A DNA stretch of 64,000 nucleotides, taken from NCBI GenBank assembly GCA_035622275.1, contig DASPVQ010000007.1, forward strand, positions 62,001 to 126,000. The letters run 5' to 3'. This document shows positions 23,702-34,166 of the stretch, in pieces; the first letter of the stretch is position 1, and each line of letters opens with the position of its first letter. The translations under genes were made by a program, and so were the position numbers. The notes under the pieces were generated by a model. The model worked only from the letters and a program-made list of their open reading frames with translations, did no database searches and had not been told where the DNA came from. This DNA comes from Thermoplasmata archaeon. GTDB taxonomy: Archaea; Thermoplasmatota; Thermoplasmata; Lutacidiplasmatales; UBA184.

Positions 23702-24787
23702 ATGCAGTGGACTCGCAAGTCGATCGTCATCGCGGTCGTGCTGGTCGCCGTCGTCGCGGGGACGGCCTACGCCGTCGCCACGAGCCGGGCTCCTCCCGAC
23801 ATGTGCCAGGGGGTCGCCCTCGGCATCCCGACGGAGGCCGCTTCGACCGGCTCGACGCCGGTCGCGGTTCTACCGGACAGGTCCGTGGACCCGGCGCCCG
23901 CTCATCCCCCACCCGCGGTCGCTCCGGCGGCCGACCGAGCTCCTGCGGCCCTCGCTCCGATCCCGGTGGTGGCCGCCGAGAACTTTTGGGGCAGCCTGGT
24001 CGCCCAGCTGGGCGGGAACGAGACGTCGGTGCTGAGCATCGTGACCGACCCGAACGCCGACCCCCATGAGTACGAGGCGAACACGTCCGACGCGCAGGCG
24101 ATCGCCGACGCCCAGCTCGTCATCGTGAACGGCGTCGGCTACGACCAGTGGGCCCTGGATCTGATCGCGGCGGACGGCAACCCCGGACAGACCGTTCTCA
24201 ACGTCGGCGAGCTGAACGGTGTCAACGTCACCGGCGGGATCGTGAGCGGCAACCCGCACATGTGGTACGACCCGGTCTACGTCAACCGTACCGTCGCGGC
24301 GATGTACGCCGATCTGGTCGAGATCCGACCGAGCGCGACCGCCTCCTTCGCGGCGAACTACGCGACGCTGAACGCCTCGCTCGCCTCGCTCTACGGGCAG
24401 GCGGCCCTCATCCGGGAGAGCTTCGCCGGGACCGTCGTCGCGTCGACCGAGAGCATCTTCGTCTACCTCGCGAACTATACCGATCTCGACCTCGTCAGCC
24501 CGCCCGCGTTCATGGAGGCGATCGCCGACGGGAGCGACCCGTCGGCCCAGAGCATCGTTCAGTTCGAGTGCCAGCTGCAGAGCGGGCTCGTCAAGGTGCT
24601 GGTCTACAACGAGCAGACCGTGACGCCGCTGACGACGAACATGAAGGCGATCGCGGCGGCCCACAACGTCACGGTCGTCGGGGTCACGGAGACGATCCAG
24701 CCACCGAACGTCTCCTTCGAGTCCTGGATGTACGGCGAGTACCTCGACCTCGAGAACGCGCTCGACGCTGAGGCCCTCGGCCGGTAG
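23702..24787 (+). CDS. Metal-ion ABC transporter substrate-binding protein (cluster A-I)
   Basis: 361 residues. An N-terminal hydrophobic segment (about residues 8-27) anchors it to the outer face of the membrane. A Pro/Ala-rich linker to residue 85 leads to the binding domain. Candidate metal ligands are His in DPHEYE, His in NPHMWYDP, and Glu in STESIF; Glu at this third place is a feature of Mn/Fe binders such as PsaA, where zinc binders usually have His. The last ligand region (VTETIQPP) is not clear-cut. Expected to capture Mn, Fe or Zn for the transporter below. Confidence 0.88.
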   Translation: MQWTRKSIVIAVVLVAVVAGTAYAVATSRAPPDMCQGVALGIPTEAASTGSTPVAVLPDRSVDPAPAHPPPAVAPAADRAPAALAPIPVVAAENFWGSLVAQLGGNETSVLSIVTDPNADPHEYEANTSDAQAIADAQLVIVNGVGYDQWALDLIAADGNPGQTVLNVGELNGVNVTGGIVSGNPHMWYDPVYVNRTVAAMYADLVEIRPSATASFAANYATLNASLASLYGQAALIRESFAGTVVASTESIFVYLANYTDLDLVSPPAFMEAIADGSDPSAQSIVQFECQLQSGLVKVLVYNEQTVTPLTTNMKAIAAAHNVTVVGVTETIQPPNVSFESWMYGEYLDLENALDAEALGR

Positions 24788-24793
24788 GGCGCC

Positions 24794-25630
24794 ATGGCGA
24801 CCTCCTCCCTCCGCTCGGACGCGCCGGCGGCCGGCGCGGACGGGGCGCCCGCGCTGCGGGCCGAGGGCCTGACGGTCGCCTACCGCGACAAACGGGTCTG
24901 GCAGGACGCGAACTTCGAGGTCGAACCCGGCGAGTTCGTCGCCGTCATCGGACCCAACGGTGCCGGCAAGACCACCCTCTTCCGCCTCCTGCTCGGACTG
25001 CAGCGACCGGCGAGCGGGCGCCTCCGCCTGTTCGGTGCGCCCCCCCGCCGAGGGAACCCCCGGATCGGCTACGTCCCCCAACGCCACACGATCGACAACG
25101 ACACCCACGTCGCGGCGAACGCCCTCGTGCAGCTGGGGGTCTCGGGCACGCACTGGGGGCCCGGCTGGAAGGCCGGCCGAGATCGCCGGAGCGCGGCCGA
25201 AGCGCTGGCCGCGGTCGACGCGTTGGAGCTCGGCACACGCCCTCTCAGCGCCCTCTCCGGCGGGGAGCTGCAGCGGATCTTCCTCGCCGAGGCGCTCGTC
25301 GGGAGGCCGGACATGCTGCTGCTCGACGAGCCGCTGTCGAACCTCGACCTGCGTCGGACGCGGGAGCTGGTCGAGGTGGTCCATCGCCTGGTCCGGGCCC
25401 GCCACGTCACGACGCTCCTCGTCGCGCACGACATCAACCCGCTGATCGAATGCCTCGACAAGGTGATCTACATCGCGAACGGCCGGGTCGCCACCGGGAC
25501 ACCGGCCGAGGTGCTGACCTCGGCGTCGCTCACCGAGCTCTACGGCGTGCCGGTCGAGGTCCTCCACGACTCGCGTGGCAACATCGTGATCGTGGGCGGC
25601 GAGGACCCACACGAGCGGGAGGGCCGATGA
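24794..25630 (+). CDS. Metal-ion ABC transporter ATP-binding protein
   Basis: 278 residues. Walker A GPNGAGKTT, signature LSGGELQR, Walker B LLLDEPLSNLD and switch His in VAHDINP. The VPQRHTIDNDTHV Q-loop region is of the ZnuC/MntB type. About 30 extra residues precede the domain. Begins 6 nt after the binding-protein gene; stop overlaps the permease ATG (ATGA). Confidence 0.92.
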   Translation: MATSSLRSDAPAAGADGAPALRAEGLTVAYRDKRVWQDANFEVEPGEFVAVIGPNGAGKTTLFRLLLGLQRPASGRLRLFGAPPRRGNPRIGYVPQRHTIDNDTHVAANALVQLGVSGTHWGPGWKAGRDRRSAAEALAAVDALELGTRPLSALSGGELQRIFLAEALVGRPDMLLLDEPLSNLDLRRTRELVEVVHRLVRARHVTTLLVAHDINPLIECLDKVIYIANGRVATGTPAEVLTSASLTELYGVPVEVLHDSRGNIVIVGGEDPHEREGR

Positions 25631-26526
25631 CGAACTCGTTCAGCTGGAACTTCGTCACCGACCTTCGGGCGATGTGGCAGTACGAGTTCATGCGGAACGC
25701 CTTCGAAGCGGGCACGATCATCGCGATCGTCGCGGGGCTCGTCGGCTACCTCGTCGTCCTGCGCCGGTCCGCCTTCGCCACGCACGCGCTGGGGCATGTG
25801 GGCTTCTCGGGAGCGGCCGGCGCCGTGCTGTTCGGCGTGAACCCGGTCTACGGGCTGCTGCTGTTCACGACGACCGGGGGCACGGGCATGGCGCTCCTCG
25901 GCAAGCGCGCCTCGACCCGCGACATCGAGATCGGGACCGTGCTGGCCTTCCTGCTCGGCGTCGGGCTCGTCTTCCTGAGCCTGTACGCCGGATACGCGAC
26001 GGAGGCCTATTCGATCCTCTTCGGCGAGATCCTAGGGATCAGCGACGCGGGGGTGCTCCTCACGCTCGAAGCGGGGGTCGTCGTCCTCGTGGCGCTCGCG
26101 CTCATGTACCGACCGCTGCTGTTCGCTTCGCTCGACGAGGACGTCGCGGAGGCGAAAGGGCTCCCGACGCTGGCGCTCGGGCTCGCGTTCATGCTGATCC
26201 TCGCCGTGGCGATCTCCTTCGCGGTGCAGGTCGTCGGGGTGCTCCTGATCTTCGCGCTGCTCGTCACCCCAGCGGCGATCGCGGTGCGGCTCACCCAGCG
26301 GCCGAGGTGGGCCGCGCTCGTCTCGGTCGCGGTCGCGCTGCTCGCGGTATGGCTGGGCCTCTTCCTCTCCTGGTACGAGCCGTATCCCGTCAGCTTCTTC
26401 ATCGTGACGATCGCCTTCGTGCTGTACCTGCTCGTCCGCGCCGCCGGCTTCGCGCGCCAGCGGCTCGTCGCTCGGTCGGATCGGGAAGCGCCGTCGGCGG
26501 CCGCGGCGGGCCCGGAGTCCACGTAG
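25627..26526 (+). CDS. Metal-ion ABC transporter permease (ZnuB/MntB family)
   Basis: 299 residues, about eight or nine hydrophobic segments. Family landmarks are YEFMRNAFEAG at the start, RRSAFATHALGHVGFSGAAGA in the first cytoplasmic loop, the EDVAEAKGL loop that contacts the ATPase, and VGVLLIFALLVTPAA. Completes a three-gene importer for divalent metal regulated by the DtxR-type protein upstream. ATG 25627 overlaps the ATPase stop. Confidence 0.93.
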   Translation: MTNSFSWNFVTDLRAMWQYEFMRNAFEAGTIIAIVAGLVGYLVVLRRSAFATHALGHVGFSGAAGAVLFGVNPVYGLLLFTTTGGTGMALLGKRASTRDIEIGTVLAFLLGVGLVFLSLYAGYATEAYSILFGEILGISDAGVLLTLEAGVVVLVALALMYRPLLFASLDEDVAEAKGLPTLALGLAFMLILAVAISFAVQVVGVLLIFALLVTPAAIAVRLTQRPRWAALVSVAVALLAVWLGLFLSWYEPYPVSFFIVTIAFVLYLLVRAAGFARQRLVARSDREAPSAAAAGPEST

Positions 26527-26557: not shown

Positions 26558-27073
26558 TCAGGCCGTCGCGCGCACCCCGGGAGTCGGGGGCACGAGCCGC
26601 TCGACGGGCGGGCTCGTGCGACCCGCCCGGCGTCGCGGGCTCGCCACGGGCGCCGCCAGGACCCGGCGGACGTACGCCTCGTCGAAGATCTCGGTCAGGG
26701 AGCGGGGCCGGCCGTCGGCGAACACCCGGTCGGCGTGCCACTTGGAACCGAAGCGCACCAGGGTCATCAGCACGGGCAACACGTCGTTGCCCTTCTCCGT
26801 GACCTCCCAGCGGGCGTACTTGGGCCCCCGCTCGACGCGCACGATGAAGCCTTCGCGCTCGAGCTCGCTCAGACGCAGCGCGAGGACCCGCTTGGTCAGG
26901 CCCGGCGTCGCCCGCATCATCTCGTTGAACCGCTGCGCGCGATAGAGCGCGATGTCCCGGAGGATCTGCAGAGCATACTTTCGCCCGAGGATCCCGAGAC
27001 TGGCCGCGACCGGGCAGCACTCAAACTCGACCTTGAAGCGGACGGTCGGCGTCGGGCGCGCCGGGGCGATCAT
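26558..27073 (-). CDS. HxlR-family winged-helix transcriptional regulator
   Basis: 171 residues from ATG 27073; an in-frame ATG at 27106 lies within the likely TATA region (CGATATG, about 27104-27110). The HxlR pattern is clear: CCPVAASLGILGRKYALQIL, then RFNEMMRATPGLTKRVLALRLSELEREGFI, then YARWEVTEKG for the wing. The tail of about 40 residues is basic and probably disordered. It is divergent from the ThiS-like gene over a 69-nt gap, so it may control that gene pair. Confidence 0.88.
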   Translation of the reverse strand: MIAPARPTPTVRFKVEFECCPVAASLGILGRKYALQILRDIALYRAQRFNEMMRATPGLTKRVLALRLSELEREGFIVRVERGPKYARWEVTEKGNDVLPVLMTLVRFGSKWHADRVFADGRPRSLTEIFDEAYVRRVLAAPVASPRRRAGRTSPPVERLVPPTPGVRATA

Positions 27074-27142
27074 GGATGTCCTACTTTCATTCCCCCAGCC
27101 GCTCATATCGGTTTACGGTCTTACGCCAGCGCAGGCACGGAC

Positions 27143-27469
27143 GTGATCGCTCGGAGCGAAGAGTCCAATAGCCCGAGGACGCTGCTCGCCGCCGTGCCCG
27201 GCCTGGACGTGCATCTCGACAGCTGGCTGCGCGAGTTCGGACCGCGGGGGCGCGAGACGATCGACGCGGGCTCCGTCGACGAGCTCCTCGACGCGCTGGA
27301 GGCGCGGTACCCCCGGCTGCGCTTCCGACTGCGGGACGAGACCGGGCAGCTCCGGCGCTACGTTCGCGTGTTCGTGGACGGGGAGGACGTGAGCGGGACG
27401 ACGGGCCTCACCACGTCGCTGGCCGGCGCCCGGTCGGTCGATATCCTCCATTCCATCGCCGGAGGCTGA
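27143..27469 (+). CDS. ThiS/MoaD-like ubiquitin-fold protein
   Basis: 108 residues from GTG 27143; a TATA-like GTTTACGG lies about 27 nt upstream. The body matches the ThiS/MoaD group: TIDAGSVDELLDALEARYP, a YVRVFVDGEDV strand, and a chain ending in the bare AGG, so the di-glycine needed for adenylation and thiocarboxylate or isopeptide formation is exposed. No E1-like or MoaE gene is adjacent. The next gene, 14 nt downstream, is a beta-propeller protein; this pairing recurs in other prokaryotes as far as I recall, with no known role. Confidence 0.75.
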   Translation: MIARSEESNSPRTLLAAVPGLDVHLDSWLREFGPRGRETIDAGSVDELLDALEARYPRLRFRLRDETGQLRRYVRVFVDGEDVSGTTGLTTSLAGARSVDILHSIAGG

Positions 27470-27483
27470 GGAGGAAAGAGGGC

Positions 27484-28614
27484 ATGCCGCGGAACCAGAG
27501 AGTCCGGGTCCTTCTCGGGACCCGCAAGGGAACCTACGTCGTCGACAGCGACCGCCGCCGCCGAACCTGGAGAGTGGGCCCGGCCGCCCATGCGGGCAGC
27601 GAGGTCTACCACGTGGTGGCCGACCCGCGCCACCCGGGAGACCTCTACGCGGCCGTGAACAACGGTTTCTGGGGCCCGATGGTGCAGCGCTCGCGCAACT
27701 GGGGCAAGACCTGGAAGGAGATCGCCACGCCCCTGACGCCGGTCCGCAAGGACCGTACCGGGCCGTTCTTCGACGACAGCCCGGGCGCCGGGACGCCGCG
27801 GCCGCTCACGAACCTCTGGCACATCGAGCCGGGGCTGCCGAGCGAGCCCGGGACGCTGTTCCTCGGCGCCGACCCGCATCTGTTGTTCCGCAGCCCGGAC
27901 CTCGGGGCGAGCTGGCAAGGGGTGGCCAGCCTCAACGAGCACCCGGACCGCAAGAACTGGGGGCCCGGTGCGGGCGGGGCGTGCCTGCACACGATCCTGC
28001 TCGATCCGCGGGACCCCCAGCGCCTCTACGTGGGCATGTCGGCGGTCGGAACGTTCCGATCCGAGGACGGAGGCGGGAGCTGGAAGCCGGTCAACCGCGG
28101 CGTGATGACCCCGTTCCTGCCGACCAAATACCCCGAGACGGGCCAGTGCGTCCACCACGTCGCGATGGACGCGGCGAACCCCGACGTCTTCTACCGACAG
28201 GACCACGGCGGCATGTACGTCTCTCGCGACCGGATGGAGCGCTGGACGCGGATCGGCCGAGCCCTCGGCGACGACTTCGGCTTCTGCGTCGCGTCGCCGG
28301 CAAGCGCCCCGGGCCGCGCCTACTTCGTCCGCCTGAACGGGCAGGCGCGCGTGACCGGTGAGGGATACTTCCAGGTCCACGCCTGGGACGACGAGCGGCG
28401 CCGCTGGTCGAGGCTGCTCCAACCGGGGGCCTTCCCCGGCCACTTCGGCGTCCAGCGGGAAGGGATCGCGACCGACGCCCTGACCCCGCACGGCATCTAC
28501 GTGGGCACGACGACCGGTCAGCTGTTCATCAGCCCGAACGCCGGCCGGTCCTGGCAGCTTGTGGCCTACCAGTTCCCGGGCATCCACTCGGTGAGCATCG
28601 CGAACCCGGACTGA
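27484..28614 (+). CDS. Sialidase-like/BNR-repeat beta-propeller protein
   Basis: 376 residues. At least four repeats with the Asp-box feel (SRNWGKTW, SPDLGASW, SEDGGGSW, SPNAGRSW), the S-x-D-x-G-x-x-W signature of sialidase and VPS10/YCF48-type propellers. No signal peptide, so cytoplasmic. The catalytic residues of true sialidases are not apparent, so glycosidase activity should not be assumed. A clean ATG follows GAGGAAAGAGGGC, a good ribosome binding site. Likely co-translated with the ThiS-like gene. Confidence 0.8.
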   Translation: MPRNQRVRVLLGTRKGTYVVDSDRRRRTWRVGPAAHAGSEVYHVVADPRHPGDLYAAVNNGFWGPMVQRSRNWGKTWKEIATPLTPVRKDRTGPFFDDSPGAGTPRPLTNLWHIEPGLPSEPGTLFLGADPHLLFRSPDLGASWQGVASLNEHPDRKNWGPGAGGACLHTILLDPRDPQRLYVGMSAVGTFRSEDGGGSWKPVNRGVMTPFLPTKYPETGQCVHHVAMDAANPDVFYRQDHGGMYVSRDRMERWTRIGRALGDDFGFCVASPASAPGRAYFVRLNGQARVTGEGYFQVHAWDDERRRWSRLLQPGAFPGHFGVQREGIATDALTPHGIYVGTTTGQLFISPNAGRSWQLVAYQFPGIHSVSIANPD

Positions 28615-31127: not shown

Positions 31128-34100
31128 ATGGTGCCCCCGGGAACCCGGCGCCTCTCGGCGATCTTCTTCGTTGACATGATCCGGTACAGCGCGCTCAGCC
31201 AGCGCGACGAGCCGCTCGCCCTCGAATATGCGCGCGACCTTCAGGCTCGGGTCCGACGTCAGGTCGAAGGGCATCGGGGCCGGTTGATCAAGACCCTCGG
31301 AGACGGCGCCCTCGCTGAATTCGAGAGCGCGCTGGAGGCGACCGAATGCGCCGTGGAACTTCAGCAGGAGTTGTCCGCGTCGAATGCGAGCCGGCCGGGA
31401 CCCAAGCTCGAGGCGCGGGTCGGCATCCACGTCGGGGACGTCGTCCACGAGGGGGACGACGTCCTGGGAGATACGGTCAACATCGCCGCACGGATCGAGC
31501 CGCTGGCAGAACCCGCGGGCGTAGCGTTCAGCGGGACCGTCTTCGAGCAAGTGGCCCGCAAGATTCCCTACACGGCGACCCAGCTCGAGCACGTCCTCCT
31601 GAAGAACATCGACACGCCCATCGCCGTCTACAGCCTCGACCTTCCCTGGCACGCCGCTCCCGCCGCCGGCATTACGCCGTTCACCGATCGGACCACGGAG
31701 CTGGAGGGCCTTCGCGAGGCGGTCGCGCGGGCCGCCCAGCAGCACGGAGCCATGGTGTCGATCGTGGGCGAATCGGGAGTCGGCAAGACCCGACTTTCCG
31801 ACGAGGCGTTCCGTCTGGCGGCCCGCCAGGGGTTTCGGATCGCCCGGGCGCGCGGGTTCGAAAACGTCCAGATCGGCCCATACGCGCTGTGGGCCCAGCT
31901 CGCTCGCGAGCTTCTCCGGGACGCCCCCTCGCTCACAGTCCATCAGGCCGCCGAAGGATGCGCCCGCGAGCTCGCGAGCCTCGTTCCGGAGATGGCCGAG
32001 CGGCTCGGTCCCCTCCCTCCGCAGCCGGCACTCGCTCCCGACGCGGCGCGCCTCCACTTCTTTACCGGGATCTCCCGTTTTCTCGAAAACCTCGCACGGC
32101 AGGCCCCGCTCGCGCTCCTGCTGGACGACCTCCAGTGGGCGGATCCGGAAACCTTCGCGTTGCTCCAGCATCTCAGCCAGCGAATCGGAGAGGTCCCGGT
32201 CCTGGTGGTGCTGACCTATCGCGACCAGGAGCTGAACGCGGACGACCCCCTGCTCCGCGGCCTCCTCGACCTGCGGATGAAACGGATACTCACCGAGATC
32301 CCGCTGCGCCGCCTCGGCCCTCACGACACCCGCTCCATGGTGGAAGCCGCCCTTCGAGGGGCCCAGGTCGCTCCCGATCTGCCGACGTCGATTGCGGAGA
32401 AGACCGGCGGAAATCCGCTCTTCGTCGAGGAGGTATTGCGGTCCCTCACCGAAGAGGAAGGGCTGGTCCGGACACCGGCCGGCTGGACGATCCGGCCCGG
32501 GTCGACGATCACGATTCCCTCGACCGTGCGGGAGACGGTCCTGCGGCGGATCCGCCGACTCGGGCCAGAGCTCCAGGGGGTACTCGAGTCGGCCTCGGTC
32601 CTGGGCAACGAGTTCGAGTTCGACCCTTGGACGGAGCTCTGTGGCATGGACGAGACTCGTTTGCTCTCTCTCGCGGAGGCCGGCCTGCGCGCACGGCTTC
32701 TCGTCGAGCGCGAGGTTTCCCCCGGGCGGGTCGTCTACCGCTTGGCCGACGAGCAGGTCCAGGCGGTGCTCTACGGGACGCTCTCGCTCGTCCGTCGACA
32801 ACGTCTTCACCGTCGGGCCGGAGAGATCCTGGAGGCGCGACTGGGAGCTCAGGCCGACGATCGGGCGGCCGAGCTAGCGCAGCATTTTTTGCGGGGCGAC
32901 CGTCCCGAGAAGGCCTTCGAGTACTTCTTCCGCGCCGGCACCCGGGCCCGGGAGGTCTTCGCGCGCGACCGGGCGATCGACGCATATCGACAGGGGGCGG
33001 AGCTGGTGGATCGCGCCCTCGCCTCGGCTCCGGGCGATGCCGACTGGGAGGCTCGGGGTGTCCAGGTCTACGAGGCGATGGGGAACGAGCAGTACGAGCT
33101 GGCCGCTTTTGTCGATGCCCGCACGAGCTACCTGCGGGGTTCGGCCCTGGCCGGCGCCCGGGATCCGGTCGGGGCGGCGCGTCTCCTGGCCCTGGACGCG
33201 GAGTCGCTCGAACGGACCAACGATTACTCCGGTGCGCAGGGCGAGCTCACGGCCGCCGAGGCGATGCTCGAACGTATCGCCCCGGATGCGCGGCACGAGG
33301 CATGGTGGACCGCGTGGAAGGAGGTCCAGTGGGCTCTCTTCGACGTCATGTACTGGCTGCACGACACGGCCGGACGGGAGCGAGTCTTGGCTCGCCTCGG
33401 CCCCGCCGTCGAGCAGAGAGGAATCCCGGACGAGCGAGTGTCGTTCTGCTACCTGCAGGCTCGCCACGGATGGCGTCGAGACCGAACGGTCACCGACGAG
33501 ACGTTCCGGTTCGCCCAATCGGCACGGGAGATCCGGGAGGCGCAGCGTTCGCTCCGCGGGGAGGCCGAAACGGACACCGAGCACGACTTCATGCTCGGGT
33601 TCTTCCAGTACTGGCACGGGGACTTCGAAGAGAGCCGGGCGGCGTTTCAGAAGACCATCGAGTACGCCCAGAAGGTCCGGGACGTCACCCTCATCTCCCG
33701 CGCGCTCAACTACCTCCTCGCGACCGAGCGACGGCGCGGGAATGTCGCGGAGGTACGTCGCCTCGTCCCGTCCGCGAGAGAAGCCGCCCAGAAGGCGAGT
33801 CTGCCGGAGTACGAGGCGTTCGCCGACGCGAACGACGCATGGATCCGGTGGCGCTCCGGGGAATACGACCGGGTGGACGTACTCGGCCAGTCGGCCCTCC
33901 GCACATGGGCGAACCTGCCCGAACGGTATCCGGTCGACTGGATGGCGCTGTGGCCGATGATCGCCCTGAGTCTTTCCCGCCAGGAGACCGGACGCGCCAT
34001 CGACCTCGCTCGGGGTCTGCTCGCGCCCTCGCAGGAACCGCTTCCTCCGGCATTGCACACTCTGGTCAGCGAAGCGGTTCGCGCCACGGAGAGCGCGAGT

Positions 34101-34166
34101 GAATCTCAGGCCGCGGAAATGCTGTCTCGTGCCGTGGAGATGGCGGAGCGCGCAGGATTCCTGTAG
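31128..34166 (+). CDS. Class III nucleotidyl cyclase - ATPase - TPR-like multidomain protein
   Basis: 1012 residues. Residues 8-170: class III cyclase domain with both metal Asp (D16 in FFVDM; D59 in LGDGA), a Lys before it (K55), and N118/R122 in VNIAARI, so catalysis looks intact. Residues 185-450: STAND/AAA-type ATPase with Walker A GESGVGKT (214-221) and Walker B LALLLDDLQWAD. Residues 560-1010: helical TPR-like repeats. The layout is known mainly from bacterial signalling proteins. A weak TATA-like GAATTAGATA at about 31093 precedes the ATG. 271 nt upstream hold nothing else recognisable. Confidence 0.88.
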   Translation: MVPPGTRRLSAIFFVDMIRYSALSQRDEPLALEYARDLQARVRRQVEGHRGRLIKTLGDGALAEFESALEATECAVELQQELSASNASRPGPKLEARVGIHVGDVVHEGDDVLGDTVNIAARIEPLAEPAGVAFSGTVFEQVARKIPYTATQLEHVLLKNIDTPIAVYSLDLPWHAAPAAGITPFTDRTTELEGLREAVARAAQQHGAMVSIVGESGVGKTRLSDEAFRLAARQGFRIARARGFENVQIGPYALWAQLARELLRDAPSLTVHQAAEGCARELASLVPEMAERLGPLPPQPALAPDAARLHFFTGISRFLENLARQAPLALLLDDLQWADPETFALLQHLSQRIGEVPVLVVLTYRDQELNADDPLLRGLLDLRMKRILTEIPLRRLGPHDTRSMVEAALRGAQVAPDLPTSIAEKTGGNPLFVEEVLRSLTEEEGLVRTPAGWTIRPGSTITIPSTVRETVLRRIRRLGPELQGVLESASVLGNEFEFDPWTELCGMDETRLLSLAEAGLRARLLVEREVSPGRVVYRLADEQVQAVLYGTLSLVRRQRLHRRAGEILEARLGAQADDRAAELAQHFLRGDRPEKAFEYFFRAGTRAREVFARDRAIDAYRQGAELVDRALASAPGDADWEARGVQVYEAMGNEQYELAAFVDARTSYLRGSALAGARDPVGAARLLALDAESLERTNDYSGAQGELTAAEAMLERIAPDARHEAWWTAWKEVQWALFDVMYWLHDTAGRERVLARLGPAVEQRGIPDERVSFCYLQARHGWRRDRTVTDETFRFAQSAREIREAQRSLRGEAETDTEHDFMLGFFQYWHGDFEESRAAFQKTIEYAQKVRDVTLISRALNYLLATERRRGNVAEVRRLVPSAREAAQKASLPEYEAFADANDAWIRWRSGEYDRVDVLGQSALRTWANLPERYPVDWMALWPMIALSLSRQETGRAIDLARGLLAPSQEPLPPALHTLVSEAVRATESASESQAAEMLSRAVEMAERAGFL

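Follow-up and report, generated by a model that had tools for sequence, protein, structure and literature searches.

The window analysed here, a 64,000-nucleotide stretch of DNA from a 1.73-Mb archaeal assembly that is 97% complete, contains a two-gene unit composed of a small ubiquitin-like (Ubl) protein and an Asp-box β-propeller, faced by a divergent regulator gene (Table 1). The Ubl open reading frame opens with GTG, encodes 108 residues and ends in ILHSIAGG followed by the stop codon. Its match to Pfam ThiS (E = 1.3e-8, 35.7 bits) lies over the curated score of 22.5, and the AGG-stop end provides the C-terminal Gly-Gly of the ThiS/MoaD superfamily; an earlier sequence-only reading of this DNA, which described a ubiquitin-fold protein with a free C-terminal Gly-Gly, is borne out by this match and by the translation. 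A second GTG at position 27194, giving a 91-residue product, is the likelier true start, because Ubl homologues start a few residues ahead of the VHLD motif. Downstream, 14 nt (27470–27483) separate the Ubl from the ATG of the propeller, the same distance as in the earlier reading. The nearest solved sequence is 3dwg chain C (E = 3.4e-8), named 9.5 kDa culture filtrate antigen in its PDB record, with 4n6e chain B also matched (E = 7.2e-6); we take both to be CysO-type sulfur carriers. The best NCBIfam match was to SAMP1 (NF041918) at 44.2 bits, where the model requires 60.

Table 1 The Ubl–propeller unit and its surroundings in the window
Feature	Coordinates	Strand	Evidence or remark
Zinc-type ABC uptake genes	23702–26526		Immediately upstream of the HxlR gene; unconserved beside the pair elsewhere
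HxlR-family regulator, divergent	26558–27106	−	Pfam HxlR, 52.9 bits against a gathering score of 20.8
Ubl (ThiS/MoaD fold), Gly-Gly end	27143–27469	+	Translation, Pfam ThiS, homologue alignment, 3dwg match
Asp-box propeller of the 3b7f type, intracellular, seven-bladed	27484–28614	+	Translation, 3b7f profile, AlphaFold2, Foldseek, VIA-align
1012-residue protein with adenylate/guanylate cyclase and AAA ATPase domains	31128–34166		In the archaeal assembly

The divergent orientation of the regulator, also seen in the earlier reading, is supported by a Pfam match over the cut-off on the minus strand. The 69-nt gap given there between regulator and Ubl holds for an HxlR start at the second ATG of that gene (27073) combined with a Ubl start at 27143; starts at 27106 and 27194 give 87 nt. 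HxlR homologues oppose the unit in 12 of 80 propeller loci, which are the best 80 of 112 in genome_contigs, so that bacterial relatives may fall outside them. Two of the 12 are solo propellers (L065 and L066), indicating that the regulator can accompany the propeller without the Ubl. The HxlR family is associated with control by electrophile or redox stress, and by analogy the regulator may place the unit under such control in some lineages. Around the propeller, only the Ubl and HxlR genes recur in these best 80 of 112 loci: homologues of the window's ZnuA, ZnuB, MarR and cyclase genes were not found near it there, and ABC ATPases, together with three weak MFS matches, occur at scattered distances. 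As nothing beyond the Ubl and HxlR genes recurs, the neighbourhood was dropped as a clue to a pathway.

Fold and conserved residues of the propeller

The propeller comprises 376 residues, and its AlphaFold2 model, calculated from 26 sequences, has a mean pLDDT of 92.3 and a pTM of 0.91. The first predicted strand spans residues 7–13, which, judged by eye, is too near the N terminus for a signal peptide to fit; none had been evident in the sequence-only reading either. Pfam matches fell under their cut-offs (Sortilin-Vps10, 26.1 of 33 bits; BNR, 20.1 of 27), as did the match to F510_1955 family glycosylhydrolase (NF045728; 52.5 bits, cut-off 175). The protein belongs to the 3b7f type by sequence and fold over its whole length: the profile match to 3b7f has an E value of 2e-83, and 3b7f is the top match of the model in both Foldseek and VIA-align (TM 0.88/0.90), superposing with a VIA-align Z score of 47.9 and an r.m.s.d. 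of 2.1 (351 aligned residues, 37% identity). The runners-up in VIA-align were GH74 xyloglucanases, with Z scores of up to 28.4, and many other propellers scored 24–27. In its entry on 3b7f, a 2009 survey (PMC2716378) gives a seven-bladed structure with function ‘not known’.

Residues invariant in 31 propellers, paired and solo, counted after removal of one weak row (L145), are T13, G16, W77, W112, G128, S137, W159, G162, H169, G189, G197, H224, Q239, H241, W254, G266, F267, R325, G345 and G354. They include a pocket set made up of W112, H169, H224, Q239, H241, F267 and R325. In the AlphaFold2 strand list, the innermost strands of successive blades begin at or next to W112, H169, H224, F267 and R325, and a second strand ends at Q239 and H241; propeller topology would place the whole set around one mouth of the channel. 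The 3b7f alignment has equivalents of H169, H224, Q239, H241 and R325.

Distribution of the gene pair in archaea and bacteria

The propeller occurs in 22 of 41 genomes, host included. All 20 loci fetched from the genus, that of the window among them, have a Gly-Gly Ubl upstream on the same strand, and the tail LHS(I/V)(A/Q)GG is kept in the Ubls of the genus. In the best 80 of 112 propeller loci, some of which are on the same contigs as in the 41-genome set, a Ubl gene immediately precedes the propeller in 73 and is missing in 7; 77 of these propeller relatives are labelled Thermoplasmata archaeon and one Candidatus Lutacidiplasma.

The family was surveyed in 71 genomes, each at least 80% complete, counting Ubl matches of at least 78 bits and omitting those of 60.9 bits or less, which for the most part are Ubl domains in reading frames long enough for an E1 fusion. 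The Ubl was found in 58 genomes and the propeller in 59; both genes are present in 57, one only in 3 and neither in 11 (Fisher p = 3.5e-10, an optimistic value because related genomes are not independent). Adjacency is similarly close, with 58 of 63 Ubl matches adjoining a propeller and 58 of 67 propeller matches adjoining a Ubl. In the sole Ubl-only genome (G417) the Ubl runs off the contig end; the propeller-only genomes hold a contig-edge fragment (G430) and a full copy (G424). The two genes of G451 are on separate contigs, and no propeller follows on the remaining 3.2 kb or so of the Ubl contig. Three further loci (L149–L151; G423:C95, G427:C39 and G427:C67) carry Gly-Gly Ubls from a related subfamily, with no propeller on the stretch fetched.

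Across the phylum, the propeller profile matches 46 of 389 genomes, many of them with weak or fragmentary hits. The pair is present in the distant archaeal relatives G035, G065, G251 and G081, with the gene order reversed in G065 and seven residues beyond the Gly-Gly in the Ubl of G081; in the paired Thermoplasmata loci fetched, the Gly-Gly stands at or near the Ubl end. In two other Thermoplasmata families (L127–L132 and L134) the propeller has no Ubl on the stretch fetched. In a tree of 104 distinct propellers, the deep joins of which involve long branches, the paired or solo label requires 4 changes. A single clade (100/100), placed within the paired propellers, holds all seven solo copies of the window's group, which suggests that the Ubl was lost there. 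Sites at which this solo clade differs from its paired relatives (57, 62, 94, 102, 132, 135, 163, 190, 232, 260 and 313), several of them near strand B–C turns in the AlphaFold2 strand list, were set aside, as they may reflect no more than the divergence of the clade.

The propeller has 27 matches in plasmid records, 19 of them across at least 80% of its length; a search of phages gave no match. Where a beta/gamma-proteobacterial plasmid record has a Ubl close by (10 records, two of them from one species, Cupriavidus metallidurans), the Ubl always lies upstream of the propeller. In Arthrobacter and Nonomuraea (Actinomycetota) the order is propeller then Ubl; reversed yet adjacent genes are found at L124, L135 and L143. 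The Nonomuraea Ubl (L135, 7066–7377) ends in LPALA and has no Gly-Gly. In Streptomyces sp. BHT-5-2 and three Rhodobacterales there is no Ubl within 6 kb of the propeller, and one solo Rhodobacter propeller (L139, 3589–7116) is divergent from egtB and egtD of ergothioneine biosynthesis. The survey thus found the pair kept in Thermoplasmata and in bacteria, where the earlier reading had named a lack of such conservation as the sign that its proposal was wrong. The statement in that reading that the pair is common in bacteria stands for at least 12 plasmid records (10 beta/gamma-proteobacterial and 2 actinobacterial). In Pseudomonas aeruginosa the locus names PA1355/PA1356 may not be the right ones for the pair, and the naming of PA1356 in a biofilm context in PMC11538994 was therefore set aside.

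Partner enzymes and the proposed role of the pair

An E1-like partner enzyme, which the sequence-only reading had proposed seeking, is encoded in the host genome: its one strong ThiF match lies in a Ubl–ThiF–rhodanese fusion. On another contig, C6, this fusion is preceded by Prok-JAB and PLP-enzyme genes (PLP enzyme, Prok-JAB and fusion in a row; L103, 343–2973), and the cluster resembles a CysO/CysM/Mec system whose carrier and E1 are fused into a single protein. The host MoaD–MoaE genes are on contig C27, where moaE is paired with another Ubl, and the Ubl of the pair is the third ThiS-family match in the genome. In the 71 family genomes, an E1 above the cut-off was found in 65 (53 of the 57 with both genes and 10 of the 11 with neither) and a JAB protein in 66; neither tracks the pair.

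At one locus (L059, 1808–9134; contig C30 of G078) the pair lies head to head with a cluster of moaD, moaE, NTP transferase, xdhC and molybdenum hydroxylase genes, and solo propellers from one genus (L160, 642–7198; L164, 566–7312) lie beside molybdenum hydroxylase, MobA-like, CoxG, XdhC and molybdopterin-binding genes. G324 and G454, the only family genomes with no MoCoBD_1 match, also lack the pair, a post hoc observation on two genomes. A molybdenum link was rejected: the three co-localisations come from two lineages and are at about chance level among paired loci by a rough estimate, and molybdenum hydroxylase and MoaE, found in 69 and 70 of the 71 family genomes, are too widespread for their presence to discriminate.

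The reading that we prefer, tentatively and at somewhat less than an even chance, is a two-protein Ubl-dependent module in which the Ubl is a dedicated carrier or donor for the propeller. The cell's MoeZ-like E1 would probably activate the Ubl at its C-terminal Gly-Gly, its ThiF domain adenylating and its rhodanese domain supplying sulfur, and the Trp/His/His/Gln/His/Phe/Arg set at the channel mouth would bind the Ubl tail, an acceptor, or both. By analogy, the working principle would be that of ThiS–ThiG, MoaD–MoaE and CysO–CysM, with the propeller replacing the partner. In this scheme we infer the Ubl–propeller contact, the thiocarboxylate chemistry, catalysis and, from topology, the placement of the residues. 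A carrier role is favoured by the tight linkage without other kept neighbours, the retained Gly-Gly and the availability of an E1, and the conserved pocket points to an enzyme or a binding protein. The module is further supported by the closeness of the Ubl to CysO-type carriers among solved chains, by the joint presence and absence of the genes (57/3/11) and by their adjacency in both orders; it is weakened by propellers that occur alone in several lineages and share the invariant residues, by the Nonomuraea Ubl, by the uncoupled genes of G451, by the failure of the E1 to track the pair and by a linked-chain model that gave no confident docking.

A linked Ubl–propeller AlphaFold2 model (L048), a single read-through chain with a shallow alignment (20 like rows) in which the Gly-Gly is never free, reached a pTM of 0.75, compared with 0.91 for the propeller alone, with no confident docking and with pLDDT below 50 in the Ubl tail and linker. 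A rough estimate of the pTM expected with an undocked appendage of about 100 residues is some 0.72, so the value of 0.75 shows no docking in the L048 linked model. That the propeller pocket takes the thiocarboxylated tail of its dedicated Ubl and passes the sulfur to a small molecule, in archaea and bacteria alike, we consider possible though doubtful.

The solo propellers with the same pocket and the Ubl without Gly-Gly imply that the core propeller function may not need Ubl chemistry everywhere. These observations, together with the nesting of the solo Lutacidiplasmatales-type copies as one clade among paired ones, speak for an alternative that we rate as unlikely, if deserving of weight, in which the propeller functions on its own and the Ubl associates with it non-covalently, as a regulatory or structural subunit, Gly-Gly chemistry being ancestral and dispensable; the Nonomuraea Ubl, after all, still sits beside its propeller. 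Against it, the Gly-Gly is retained in all other paired Ubls with a visible 3′ end, and only a single loss was seen. Distinctly less probable is a SAMP-like protein modifier with the propeller as its target, adaptor or reader. The sub-threshold SAMP1 match would fit this, as would the E1 and the JAB protein encoded in the host genome, the latter matching desampylase weakly (50.4 of 130 bits). Across 15 diverse paired propellers there is no invariant Lys (K15 is present in 14 of the 15), and Cys222, which in archaea looked like a thioester acceptor, is present in 10 of the 15, the five that lack it all being beta/gamma-proteobacterial; both a conserved conjugation target and a thioester partner are weakened by this, and the pairing of one modifier with one neighbour would be unusual for a general modifier. 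Co-inheritance of neighbours with no joint function is very improbable: most loci come from one archaeal family and shared ancestry inflates the counts, yet the pair is found in both orders and in archaea and bacteria, with nothing else retained around it.

Catalysis in GH33 exo-alpha-sialidases uses Tyr/Glu and Asp residues. Homologue annotations (‘exo-alpha-sialidase’, ‘sialidase family protein’), the Asp-box repeats, the likeness to the GH74 fold (Z 28.4) and R156, R289 and R325, which are all invariant in the 15 paired propellers and make a carboxylate-binding site possible, notwithstanding, a glycosidase or sialidase with the Ubl as an incidental neighbour is scarcely credible, given that there is no evident signal peptide, no invariant Tyr or Glu, invariant Asp residues (D139 and D195 in paired propellers) that sit in Asp-box-like motifs, seven blades in 3b7f against six in the sialidases of the 2009 survey (PMC2716378), and Ubl adjacency in two domains of life in both orders. 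The sequence-only reading had likewise seen no evident sialidase residues, and homologues that are clearly secreted sialidases, its other possible counter-evidence, were not found. Overall, its observation is confirmed, and its interpretation as a sulfur-carrier or conjugation module is partly supported, the dedicated-carrier module being the form that we prefer; sulfur carriage or conjugation by the Ubl, and the propeller as its scaffold or target, are putative.

Relation to known systems

The Ubl and propeller families are already known and annotated by name. No description of the pair or of its role was found in the literature searched, which included passages of PMC1779556, PMC2948915, PMC1949818, PMC2716378, PMC9287336 and PMC11538994. 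Should Ubl-dependent propeller enzymes exist, of which we are rather doubtful, they would form a class not described in that literature. The two-gene unit, found in an archaeon of acid soil, in its relatives and in some bacteria, has a directly testable role, and cultivable carriers such as C. metallidurans, along with a solved structure in the propeller family, make it testable without the uncultured archaeon.

The propeller has the same fold over its entire length as 3b7f, which is Reut_B4987 of Ralstonia eutropha JMP134. GH74 xyloglucanases are likewise seven-bladed Asp-box propellers, but they have two propellers per protein (7+7 blades; PMC2716378) and about 20% identity; carbohydrate activity is not expected in an intracellular single propeller. 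Sortilin/Vps10 and Ycf48 are Asp-box propellers for which PDB titles indicate complexes with peptides, and they offer a possible analogy for binding of the Ubl tail. Sortilin differs in having ten blades (PMC2716378) rather than the seven of 3b7f, and its sequence match in the window is below the cut-off.

The Ubl differs from SAMP1 in its sub-threshold score and its neighbour, and its conjugation is only putative. It differs from MoaD in that moaE is not its partner gene. With CysO-type carriers it shares the Gly-Gly end, but its partner gene is the propeller, and cysM and a mec-like JAB gene lie not beside it but beside the Ubl–E1 fusion on contig C6. Known partners of prokaryotic Ubl sulfur carriers define the pathways that they serve, namely thiamine, molybdopterin and cysteine; here the partner gene encodes a protein of another fold, the propeller, and stays next to the Ubl gene in both archaea and bacteria.
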